From positions 1,478 through 42,922 of the IMG/VR virus record IMGVR_UViG_3300005293_000010: a stretch of 41,445 nt of DNA; one strand, 5' to 3'. Positions 36,693 to 40,446 of this stretch are shown one piece after another. This DNA comes from a virus. How positions within the stretch are numbered: position 1 is the first letter of the stretch; each line of letters begins with the position of its first letter. The notes beneath the pieces are model-generated. The model was not told where the DNA came from, ran no database searches, and saw only the letters and a list, made by a program, of their open reading frames with translations. A program made the translations under genes and the position numbers.

Positions 36693-36883
36693 GTCGCCTT
36701 GCGCAAGCAGAAGCCGAGGCGCGGCACCCATTGCGGTTTGCCGCTGGTGGCCGCGATGAAAAGTCATGGGCCAAGCGCTTCGTGTACCGGTATGAGAACG
36801 GCGACAAGACGTTGACCACTGTGCAAATCCACTTCGCCTACATGGCACTGGAATTGCCGATCCCGACCGGAGGACAGCCATGA
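36689..36883 (+). CDS. Hypothetical small protein, 64 aa
   Basis: A basic protein with FVYRYENGDKTLTTVQIHFA in its second half. ATGA overlaps on both sides. No family is recognised. Confidence 0.55.
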   Translation: MSRLAQAEAEARHPLRFAAGGRDEKSWAKRFVYRYENGDKTLTTVQIHFAYMALELPIPTGGQP

Positions 36884-37110
36884 GCAGCCACCTTTCAAGC
36901 GACGCCGAGCTACGCGCAGAGCGGCAGACCGAGCGCCTGACGCTGATAGCGATGGGTCTAGGCGATCCGCAGACTGAAACGCGAAAACTTGCAGAGCAAG
37001 CCTGCGAGATACTTTGGCCGCACGAACTTGACACGCTGGCGGCAGCGCGGAAAACGATGGCGCTGCTGATGCTCAAGCTGGCGGTGTGGCACGTAACGGG
37101 GAAATCATGA
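36880..37110 (+). CDS. Hypothetical small protein, 76 aa
   Basis: A helical protein (ELRAERQTERLTLIAMGLG, then EQACEILWPHELDTLAAARK). It is coupled by ATGA to both neighbours, including the Dcm gene. The function is unknown. Confidence 0.55.
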   Translation: MSSHLSSDAELRAERQTERLTLIAMGLGDPQTETRKLAEQACEILWPHELDTLAAARKTMALLMLKLAVWHVTGKS

Positions 37111-37871
37111 ATAACAACGGAGAAAAGAATGGCATGGTCAATCAGCAACGCAATGATGAGAAATTACGAGTCCTTGAGCTATTCGCGGGAGCGGGGGGGG
37201 GCATCCTTGCCGACGAATTACTCGGATGGAGAACCATCTGCGCTGTCGAATACAACGCCTATGCCAGATCAGTATTACTGGCCCGACAGAACGACGGAAC
37301 ACTCTCGGCTTTCCCGGTTTGGGATGACGTGCGAACGTTTGACGGAAAACCTTGGCGCGGAATTGTTGATATGGTATCTGGCGGGTTTCCATGCACGAAC
37401 ATCAGCGCATCGGGCGACGGATCGGGAATCGACGGAGAAGCCAGCGGGCTATGGGGCGAAATGCGGCGGGTTATTGGCGACGTACAGCCGCGATATGTCC
37501 GCGTGGAAAACGGCCCAATGCTCACTTCTCGCGGACTCGGACGAGTTCTCGGAGACCTGGCCGCGATGGGGTTCGATGCGGAGTGGGGATGCCTATCAGG
37601 CGGGAGTTTCGGCGCCAACCATGTACGAGATCGAATCTGGATCATTGCTACCCACTCCGACGTGCCACAACTCGAAAGAAGGAGCATATCCAGCCGAATA
37701 TACAAGGAATACACCAACCTTGGCCACTCATGTTGGTGGGAAAATCCACCCGAACTTCACAGAATGGATGATGCGGTGGCCTTTGGACTGGACCGACTTA
37801 AAGCCATTGGCAACGGGCAAATTCCGGTCGTGGCGGCTACAGCATGGCGAATCCTATCCGGTGAGCCATGA
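37107..37871 (+). CDS. C5-cytosine DNA methyltransferase (Dcm type), overprinted
   Basis: The 254-residue frame carries the C5-methylase motifs in order: motif I VLELFAGAGGG (residues 22-32), motif IV GGFPCTNIS with the catalytic Cys, motif VI VENGP, motif VIII RDRIWIIA, and motif X-like RLKAIGNGQIPVVAATAW. The target-recognition part between VIII and X is very short. It probably protects phage DNA from host restriction. A GGGGA site precedes the ATG, and the start overlaps the upstream stop. A second long frame covers nearly all of it (37129-37884). Nine G at 37193-37201 lie in motif I. Confidence 0.88.
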   Translation: MNNNGEKNGMVNQQRNDEKLRVLELFAGAGGGILADELLGWRTICAVEYNAYARSVLLARQNDGTLSAFPVWDDVRTFDGKPWRGIVDMVSGGFPCTNISASGDGSGIDGEASGLWGEMRRVIGDVQPRYVRVENGPMLTSRGLGRVLGDLAAMGFDAEWGCLSGGSFGANHVRDRIWIIATHSDVPQLERRSISSRIYKEYTNLGHSCWWENPPELHRMDDAVAFGLDRLKAIGNGQIPVVAATAWRILSGEP

Positions 37872-37884
37872 TCCGAGGCGGTAG
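37129..37884 (+). CDS. Overlapping second protein in +1 frame of the methyltransferase, 251 aa
   Basis: This frame is open for 251 codons with a near-ideal ribosome site (GGAG, 6-base spacing), better than expected by chance. Its sequence resembles a phage protein family I know from methylase neighbourhoods: the start MAWSISNAMM, LSRFGMTCERLTE near residue 61, AGFHARTSA (the shifted reading of the methylase GFPC block), CSLLADSDEFSETWPRWG, a PTPT linker and a C-terminal HPNFTEWMMRWPLDWTDLKP. Those features suggest a genuine dual-coding gene. The function is unknown. The alternative is that conservation comes only from the methylase frame. Confidence 0.6.
   Translation: MAWSISNAMMRNYESLSYSRERGGASLPTNYSDGEPSALSNTTPMPDQYYWPDRTTEHSRLSRFGMTCERLTENLGAELLIWYLAGFHARTSAHRATDRESTEKPAGYGAKCGGLLATYSRDMSAWKTAQCSLLADSDEFSETWPRWGSMRSGDAYQAGVSAPTMYEIESGSLLPTPTCHNSKEGAYPAEYTRNTPTLATHVGGKIHPNFTEWMMRWPLDWTDLKPLATGKFRSWRLQHGESYPVSHDPRR
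37193..37201 (+). repeat. Nine-G homopolymer in methylase motif I
   Basis: Nine consecutive G lie where both overlapping frames are read. Loss or gain of one G would join the N-terminus of one frame to the C-terminus of the other. Such tracts are prone to slippage during replication or transcription. Confidence 0.9.
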
Positions 37885-38342: not shown

Positions 38343-38729
38343 ATGACGCCAGAACAGAAATTGAAGCACATGATCCTGATTCACTCTATGGGGTATCAGG
38401 ATTTGCCAGCGCCGGAAAGCGTGACCGCCGAGAACATCGATGAACTGTACGAGGCTGGCGATGATGACTATGCGCAGGATGCGCGGTACGAAGTGCGTGA
38501 AGGCGAAGTGGAAACTGACATTGACGCTCCATCATCGCGCCACTACGAATCGAAGTCGGTAGCCGCCAAAGCGCCGGATGGCTCGTGGGTCGGCTGGACG
38601 TACTGGTACGGCGGCGGCAAGCACGGCGAGCCGGAGGCTATCGACTGGATGGATTCGGCCTACGATCTGACATGCGTTGAAGAAGAAAAAGTTGTTACCG
38701 TGCGCACGTTTTCCAAGGTGTCAGCATGA
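38343..38729 (+). CDS. Hypothetical acidic protein, 128 aa
   Basis: The acidic N-terminal half leads to a beta-like part with WVGWTYWYGGGKHGEPEAID, which resembles a small domain shared by several phage early proteins. GGAGAAG lies just before the ATG. It overlaps the next gene by ATGA. No function is known. Confidence 0.6.
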   Translation: MTPEQKLKHMILIHSMGYQDLPAPESVTAENIDELYEAGDDDYAQDARYEVREGEVETDIDAPSSRHYESKSVAAKAPDGSWVGWTYWYGGGKHGEPEAIDWMDSAYDLTCVEEEKVVTVRTFSKVSA

Positions 38730-39349
38730 TCCCCCGCAGCCTGGCAGACATCGAAGCTGCCGACCGTGTGTCCGAACTCTTGAACGAAGTTGCCGATGTG
38801 TTGATTAGCAACAACTGGCGCGGCGATCTGATCGAGAGGTTACGTGACCTTGCCTCGTCCCCTGCTGCTGCGGTAAGCCAAGCCCCGACCGACCTGTCGA
38901 AGCGGCTGCGCGATATCGCACAGGAATTCGGTGGCGGTGGCTCGACCACCCTTTGCACGGATCAGGTCATGGATGCGGCTGATGAAATCGAGCGCTACTA
39001 CGGCGGAATGATGGCATGGAAGCAGACCGCAGAGAAGAAGGACCGCGACTGGCAGAACGAAGTCACGACATCACACGAAGCCATTGCCGGGGCCGTTGCG
39101 CGCGGCTGGTGCCACAAATCATGCGCCCACAAGGTCATGGACGAGCAACTGGCCTATGCCATCGTCCGCGAAGTCGAGGCACTTTTTGTAGCGCCAGCCG
39201 ATGCAGGCATTCGCAGCGCGGCACTGGAATCCGCAGCGCAGCTTGTCGAATCGTTCTGCGCATCGGACGACAGCGACACCGAAGAAGCTATCAACACAAT
39301 ACTGTGCCAGCGCGCGACGCGCATTCGCGCTTTGAAGGAGGCAAAATAA
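38726..39349 (+). CDS. Hypothetical modular accessory protein, 207 aa
   Basis: A helical protein with ADRVSELLNEVADVLIS at the start, DLSKRLRDIAQEFGGGGSTT near residue 75 and a Cys/His pair in WCHKSCAH near residue 128. It appears to be built from the short blocks typical of Ea22-like accessory proteins. Its stop overlaps the next start (TAATG). Confidence 0.6.
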   Translation: MIPRSLADIEAADRVSELLNEVADVLISNNWRGDLIERLRDLASSPAAAVSQAPTDLSKRLRDIAQEFGGGGSTTLCTDQVMDAADEIERYYGGMMAWKQTAEKKDRDWQNEVTTSHEAIAGAVARGWCHKSCAHKVMDEQLAYAIVREVEALFVAPADAGIRSAALESAAQLVESFCASDDSDTEEAINTILCQRATRIRALKEAK

Positions 39350-40446
39350 TGGACAAGATCAATACTGCGGCCCCTGTGGGTAATTTAGGGGATGGCGATC
39401 GAGCCGAGTTCGAGCGCGAAATGCTGCGGCTCGATATTTGCGACGACGAAGGCTTAGAGCGTTGCAATGGAAACTACGTCGATGAGCCTACGCAGGCGGC
39501 ATGGGGATCATGGCAAGCCCGCGCCCTGCTTGCCGCTCGTGCTGCGCCAGGTGTGCCAGCACCAGTAGCGAGGAATTTGCAGCCCGATCAGTCGAATGTA
39601 GTTCCGCCCTTCGCGGAACCCGCTGCGCAACACGATGCGGCTCGCGCGGCATGGGAATACAGTTTCATCCATTCCAGCGCGACAGAGCGCGGCGATGATG
39701 AAATCGGCCCATGCCTCACCTACGACAAAGCGATAGCCTACGGCACTGGCTGCATCAAACAACGCGCCATGCTTGTTGGCGCGACGGCAGATGTGCCGAT
39801 GCTGCTTGCGCCTCACTATCGCGGCTATGCAAAGCTCGGCACCGGCCAATACCTGCTGAACCACAGCGAAGCGGGCCAAGAGCCGGAATTCATCATCAGT
39901 GTGGCTACCGACGCGGAGAAGGCTGGCCGCGTAGTGGGCGATTCGCGTGCAAACCCGCCTGACGCGCTGTTGCAGCCTGAGGCGATGGCCGTTCGAATCG
40001 CGTTCGCCAGCGTCGCCGGACTGGACGCGATGGAAGACCAGTTGCGCAAGATGCGCGTTGAACATTTCGCCGAGTCTATCGCCCCTAGTGCAGCAGCACC
40101 GACCACCGACTACGATTCACTGCGCCGCACGATTCACGAATTGCGCACGTATAGCCCTGCTGGTGATGCCTACCACGGCGCGCATGTGCATAAGGCATGG
40201 GCGAATTTAATTGAAGCCGCTATTGTCAATGCCCCGGCAGCACCGATAGACCGGGGCTCGGCGTTCATGCAGGCCGCGATGGATTTTGCGCAGGCGCATA
40301 TCAATTGCGATGAAGTCGAGGATGAATATGAGGCCGATCCGACGAGTGGCAGCGAGGCCGATACTGCCGAAGTGGACGGAATGTACAACGTGACCAAGAA
40401 GCGCCTAGTCGAAGCGTATCGCGCCCTGAAAGGATCGTCGAAATGA
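39349..40446 (+). CDS. Modular accessory protein (Ea22-like), 365 aa
   Basis: I start at 39349 (MDKINTAAPV) behind GAAGGAG; the longer frame to 39016 lies inside the upstream gene. Blocks include an N-terminal EREMLRLDICDDEGLERCNG, a WGSWQARALLAARAA module, APHYRGYAKLGTGQYLLNHS near residue 163 and a helical DYDSLRRTIHELRTYSPAGD part. Linkers are Ala/Pro-rich. The function is unknown. Confidence 0.65.
   Translation: MDKINTAAPVGNLGDGDRAEFEREMLRLDICDDEGLERCNGNYVDEPTQAAWGSWQARALLAARAAPGVPAPVARNLQPDQSNVVPPFAEPAAQHDAARAAWEYSFIHSSATERGDDEIGPCLTYDKAIAYGTGCIKQRAMLVGATADVPMLLAPHYRGYAKLGTGQYLLNHSEAGQEPEFIISVATDAEKAGRVVGDSRANPPDALLQPEAMAVRIAFASVAGLDAMEDQLRKMRVEHFAESIAPSAAAPTTDYDSLRRTIHELRTYSPAGDAYHGAHVHKAWANLIEAAIVNAPAAPIDRGSAFMQAAMDFAQAHINCDEVEDEYEADPTSGSEADTAEVDGMYNVTKKRLVEAYRALKGSSK

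Follow-up and report, generated by a model that had tools for sequence, protein, structure and literature searches.

C5-cytosine methyltransferases assembled from two polypeptides are the closest described counterparts of the locus reported here. M.EcoHK31I recognizes YGGCCR and belongs to a restriction-modification system. Lee, Kam and Shaw are said to have described in 1995 an alpha chain of 309 aa and a beta chain of 176 aa, both needed in vitro, with beta reportedly encoded in an alternative frame overlapping alpha. M.AquI (CYCGRG) is one C5 methyltransferase made from two polypeptides, and in M.EcoHK31I the large subunit holds motifs I–VIII and X while a small polypeptide holds motif IX (PMC3404938). 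EcoHK31I is also mentioned in PMC3439449, PMC4574080 and PMC6456624. A literature search for the alpha/beta overlap described below returned no paper.

The locus lies in a window of 41,445 nt (the whole stretch of DNA analysed), which is included in a viral contig of 42.9 kb. As in M.EcoHK31I, the alpha chain of the window holds motifs I–VIII and X, motif IX falls on the smaller polypeptide (in the window copy in a degenerate form) and the small-subunit frame overlaps the large-subunit gene, here by 743 nt. The likeness to M.EcoHK31I thus consists of the motif split plus a gene layout that is reported for that enzyme. Unlike M.EcoHK31I, the window locus is carried by a phage and has no recognized nuclease neighbour, and its beta is 251 aa long and covers nearly all of alpha. 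As in M.AquI, two polypeptides are here proposed to make one C5 methyltransferase; however, motifs IX and X both lie on the small subunit of M.AquI, whereas the window keeps motif X (GNGQIP) in alpha. Beta as an AquI-type subunit was rejected on this ground.

Gene layout and occurrence of the overlap

Head, portal and terminase genes occupy the minus strand of the contig, while the plus strand forms the replication region, with a NinG/Rap-like nuclease and a DnaD-like helicase loader. Both methyltransferase-locus frames were found where the original prediction had placed them, in +1 relation and overlapping on the same strand at 37129–37871, and the two ribosome-binding-like sites that it named precede the respective starts (Table 1). 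The alpha ATG at 37107 overlaps the stop codon of the upstream ORF (36880–37110) as ATGA. Among relatives the beta start codon is ATG in 89% and GTG in 10%, and in 97 of 123 loci an alpha-frame start lies exactly 4 nt upstream of the beta start (NTGnATG, mostly ATGAATG, GTGAATG or TTGAATG). The window belongs to an N-terminally extended subgroup in which the alpha start lies 22 nt upstream of the beta start.

Table 1. Features of the methyltransferase locus (window positions) and, in the last row, the related nested ORFs (locus handles and positions within the locus)
Feature	Position	Strand	Basis or remark
Alpha, C5-cytosine methyltransferase large subunit, 254 aa	37107..37871	+	motifs I–VIII and X, without IX; PF00145, HhaI/HaeIII by sequence and fold
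Beta, +1-frame product, 251 aa	37129..37884	+	open and conserved beyond alpha's shadow, 123/125 relatives
Alpha ribosome-binding-like site GGGGA	37098..37102	+	sequence
Beta ribosome-binding-like site GGAG, before ATG 37129	37119..37122	+	sequence
Alpha motif I (RVLELFAGAGG)	37167..37199	+	
Alpha motif IV (GGFPC, catalytic Cys)	37380..37406	+	
Alpha motif VI (VEN)	37500..37520	+	
Alpha motif VIII (VRDRIWII)	37620..37649	+	
Alpha motif X (KAIGNGQIP), near alpha end	37800..37826	+	
Beta conserved middle W/G element (SWKTxQCSLL..FSETWPRWGxMRNGE)	37471..37608	+	excess conservation; A1 vs A3 hhalign E 1.8e-10
Variable-length region in both frames, candidate target-recognition region	37609..37734	+	+1 open in 124/124 despite variability
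Beta motif IX, GGKIHPNFTEWMMRWPLDWTDL; consensus GGxLNPxWVEWLMGWPxGWTDL	37735..37800	+	pattern counts, peak excess conservation
Nested-ORF loci, Firmicutes phages	L258 928-1392, L309-L336, L256, L257, L357-L360		

The whole viral genome contains a single PF00145 match. A PADLOC scan of eight proteins assigned no family except methyltransferase models for alpha, and no restriction enzyme was recognized among the neighbours scanned. Further along the window, the ORFs 38726–39349 and 39016–40446 also lie on the same strand in different frames, with a 334-nt overlap and no PHROG or PADLOC match; the 476-aa ORF of this pair may have a later true start.

By sequence, hundreds of phages and bacterial genomes have the alpha/beta arrangement. 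Each of the 80 bacterial-genome loci retrieved by a search with beta carries alpha and the same +1 overlap; they come from Proteobacteria, Verrucomicrobia, Acidobacteria, Planctomycetes, Patescibacteria and others; Leptospira and Acinetobacter plasmids show the same overlap. More distant relatives in which beta scored above the shadow of alpha were found in mycobacteriophage SG4, a Synechococcus phage, a Stenotrophomonas phage, a Porphyromonas phage, a Nostoc plasmid and a plasmid of the archaeon Methanomethylovorans. Two further candidates, L254 (Picosynechococcus) and L251, were rejected as clear members with scores within the null range. Among sampled genomes the arrangement is occasional, occurring in 11 of 199 Pseudomonas and in 2 of 198 genomes of the order of the Pantoea genome, the seed genome being included in both counts. 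In the 14 annotated public records checked, alpha alone was annotated in 11, beta alone in 3 and both in 0, and because each record names one frame, the second subunit is absent from protein databases.

In mycobacteriophage Llama (L246, 1341–2257) an indel swaps the frames, such that the N-terminal part of alpha ends early, the N-terminal part of beta runs into the C-terminal part of alpha, and the C-terminal part of beta forms a separate ORF. In the Llama record the locus is entered as two adjacent 'DNA methyltransferase' genes (74 and 75), and the same type of split was seen by tblastn in several related phages.

Coding in the +1 frame

The relatives comprised 125 distinct alpha genes, drawn from 80 IMG/VR loci selected via beta and 80 selected via alpha. 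As a null model, synonymous codons were reshuffled such that neither the protein nor the codon content of any alpha gene changed. The +1 core frame was open in 123 of the 125 genes, where 3.9 were expected, and contained 2 stops against 428 expected; the third same-strand frame had 1440 stops and was open in 0/125. When five segments were considered separately, each had 0 or 1 stops in the +1 frame (22–117 expected), and the frame was open in 123 or 124 of 124 genes per segment, the N-terminal and length-variable segments included. All 80 of the best alpha-selected IMG/VR loci carry beta, so its presence is not an artefact of beta-based selection.

Conservation of the beta protein was then compared with the shadow cast by alpha, using a beta HMM from which the window was left out. 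The window +1 frame scored 341.6 bits, against 171.3 (sd 14.5) for the null, an excess of approximately 12 sd. About half of the score (171 of 342 bits) is consequently a by-product of alpha conservation. Raw tblastn E-values for beta are inflated accordingly; they were set aside, and the excess over the shadow was taken as the evidence for beta. Across the protein, 93% of beta positions were more conserved than under reshuffling. The beta-specific excess was highest over beta residues 203–240, which hold motif IX (0.92 bits per column), followed by residues 111–160, which hold the W/G element (0.72 bits per column), and was 0.37–0.56 bits over the N-terminal 110 residues. Third positions of alpha are second positions of beta, and their rate of change is close to that of first positions; the pos3/pos1 ratio was 1.32 in alpha, whereas neighbouring ORFs compared over the same pairs, a noisy control, gave 2.63.

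Purifying selection beyond the shadow of the other frame was therefore found in both members of this same-strand pair, and on the sequence evidence the overlap is real coding. A dual-coding locus had been inferred in the original prediction, which proposed looking in homologues for +1 stops and for neutral +1 substitution once the methylase constraint is removed. The frame proved intact and beta conserved well above the shadow of alpha, and together with the conserved starts these results strongly support that inference.

One pair of loci, L110 and L135, shows a 1.7% difference in the overlapping gene but near-identical neighbouring genes (0–0.2% at each codon position), possibly reflecting an exchange of the methyltransferase locus.

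Motif IX, fused relatives and nested frames

Alpha matched PF00145 with an E-value of 6.2e-23, covering only profile positions 2–180 of 324. The motifs I, IV (PC), VI (ENV-like), VIII and X that mark C5-cytosine DNA methyltransferases were all located, as anticipated for a Dcm-type frame, whereas motif IX in the same polypeptide, which also belongs to the PF00145 definition, was found in 0/125 alphas. The AlphaFold model of alpha was good over the catalytic domain and of low confidence past motif VIII, and approximately 170 residues matched the HaeIII and HhaI methyltransferases (TM 0.59). The very short recognition part first noticed from the sequence is a real property of alpha, and the small-domain part absent from it most likely sits in beta.

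Beta matched PHROG 1008 (5e-17) and had no match in Pfam, NCBIfam or PDB searches. Its AlphaFold model was poor (pLDDT 59, pTM 0.28) and had no match among PDB folds. The phage family signature originally given for this frame was only roughly right, though the window reads FHARTSA and WMMRWPLDWTDLK and not FARTSA and WMMGWPxGWTDLK. When the C5 motif IX pattern L-x-P-x6-[MQ]-G-[FYW]-P was applied, it was found in 75/122 betas, 0/125 alphas and 12/22 single-chain enzymes, compared with 1/24,400 shuffled betas, and the distance from the end of beta motif IX to alpha motif X was 26 nt in 71 of the 75. The window's own motif IX (IHPNFTEWMMRWP) is a degenerate form that departs from the consensus at R216, where 91% have G, and also at I206 and D220. 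When the profiles of beta and of single-chain C5 methyltransferases were compared, motif IX was picked out at an E-value of 0.54, which is not significant and makes this comparison suggestive. These sequence patterns are best explained if beta carries motif IX together with some of the small DNA-recognition domain.

Relatives in which both parts occur in one chain were found on Vibrio and Alteromonas plasmids (L253 and L340–L342; e.g. WP_240306742). Like the window locus, they combine alpha-like motifs I–VIII and X with a beta-like domain holding motif IX; unlike it, they are single polypeptides in which the beta part lies downstream of motif X at the C-terminus, ending in motif IX (e.g. LHPEFCEVFMGYP), and the genes do not overlap. 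The beta HMM matched L253 strongly (i-E 2e-9) and the other three examined weakly (4e-5, 5e-4 and 0.7). HMMER placed the LHPEFCEVFMGYP segment on HhaI residues 268–288, LHPRECARVMGYP, with 0.4 bits, which is not significant alone. The plasmid search for fused forms yielded 28 records in Vibrio, Alteromonas and Aliivibrio, while a viral scan for more of them found nothing. Stops in the +1 frame of the fused genes were ordinary (14 vs 15.8 expected); judged by these counts, the +1 overlap has decayed where the beta-like domain sits in frame. Fused relatives without the overlap are the best evidence for beta as a working part of the enzyme.

Firmicutes-phage methyltransferases were chosen as a negative control, failed as a clean control and became a finding in their own right. 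These enzymes are complete, with motifs IX and X in frame, and a stretch of approximately residues 49–190 is open and under constraint in the +1 frame. Over the stretch from PCQ to motif VIII, 0 stops were found in 22/22 genes, against 55.9 expected, with ordinary numbers before and after it. The nested product is ~140–150 aa long, has C-terminal ends such as CSLSDILEDEVDEKYFLS and SLSDILEDEVDEKYFLS (alignment A3), and belongs to PHROG 16143, with a weak match to PHROG 1008, the family matched by beta. Comparison of the nested family (A3) with the middle part of beta (A1) gave an hhalign E-value of 1.8e-10, part of which is possibly shadow.

Among the records viewed, the nested ORF was annotated only in pneumococcal phage MM1 (NC_003050.2), where a +1 ORF14 lies inside methyltransferase ORF13 and both are called DNA methyltransferase. 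The ORF14 family is related to the middle part of beta; in contrast to the window locus, ORF13 is complete with motif IX in frame, and ORF14 (141 aa) stops before motif IX. Because a related nested ORF overlies enzymes that have their own motif IX, supplying this motif is not the whole role of the beta family. The overlap is accordingly wider than the motif IX split, and beta is, by sequence comparison, probably more than a motif IX carrier.

A proposed split enzyme and the alternatives

From the sequence features of the locus and by analogy with M.EcoHK31I, we consider it likely that its two overlapping frames together specify a single split C5-cytosine methyltransferase. Alpha would contribute motifs I–VIII, including SAM binding and the catalytic Cys, and motif X, and beta would contribute the W/G element and, after a variable segment, motif IX. 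One mRNA would serve for both chains, each translated from its own start, and since these starts lie 4 nt apart in most relatives, roughly matched amounts may be produced. Beta is predicted to dock on alpha and complete the small DNA-binding domain, such that neither chain would be active alone. In DNA order the motifs run I to VIII, IX and X as in ordinary enzymes, with IX in the +1 frame, which suggests descent from a single-frame enzyme. The location in the replication region and the absence of a restriction enzyme among the neighbours scanned point to an orphan methylase, which may shield phage DNA from host restriction or mark DNA. The second product had originally been proposed as an accessory to methylation, acting for example in specificity or inhibition; a role in methylation is favoured by motif IX and the in-frame fused relatives, while nothing was found in support of an inhibitor.

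The alternative that survives best makes beta an accessory or regulatory protein in its own right, such as a chaperone, a modulator of specificity or activity, or a counter-defence protein, overprinted on the methyltransferase gene and resembling motif IX only secondarily. The constrained nested ORF in the complete Firmicutes-phage enzymes, related to the middle of beta, is consistent with such a protein, as is the beta-specific constraint over the N-terminal 110 residues. The strongest constraint, however, lies exactly at motif IX, which is absent from every alpha relative, and the plasmid relatives join a beta-like domain and alpha in one chain; we therefore regard a separate protein as unlikely.

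Programmed frameshifting from alpha into the +1 frame would give a hybrid methyltransferase, and could draw on the position of motif IX between VIII and X in DNA order, as in single-chain enzymes, and on the natural frame swap in Llama. Two shifts would be needed, however, with motif X back in frame 0, and beta starts at a conserved codon of its own, with Shine–Dalgarno-like sites. Its N-terminal part, which would be useless to such a hybrid, is open in 124/124 genes, and frameshifting is accordingly very improbable.

That the +1 ORF is a by-product of conservation and composition in a GC-rich methyltransferase gene can be dismissed almost entirely: synonymous reshuffles do reproduce half of the beta HMM score, but the openness is far past a null of fixed protein and codon content, the remaining half of the score lies 12 sd over that null, the starts are conserved and the fused relatives show ordinary +1 stops, so that such an artefact is rejected barring an unknown DNA-level constraint that mimics a reading frame.

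For the split methyltransferase, the new findings are that the overlap is deep and widespread, takes in nearly the whole gene and is missing from annotation, that fused counterparts exist and that complete enzymes hold a nested ORF. A broader proposal, which we consider evenly balanced, is that beta represents a subunit, ancient and generally overlooked, which is shared by a large clade of phage and mobile-element C5 methyltransferases and encoded inside the catalytic gene. It would be the carrier of motif IX in split enzymes and occur as a shorter nested form in apparently complete ones. A single stretch of DNA would then encode both halves of an enzyme, in a range that takes in archaeal plasmids and the phages of actinobacteria, Bacteroidota, Firmicutes and proteobacteria.

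It is rare for a long same-strand overlap to encode two deeply conserved proteins that act in one enzyme, and the one proposed here would be old, widespread and testable. If the proposal is correct, expressing the annotated gene of an orphan phage methylase with changed codons would in many cases give an enzyme that is inactive because beta is lacking, and specificity predictions based on motifs would be searching the wrong frame. The locus would also provide a natural system for the evolution of subunits and recognition regions in which each change touches both.
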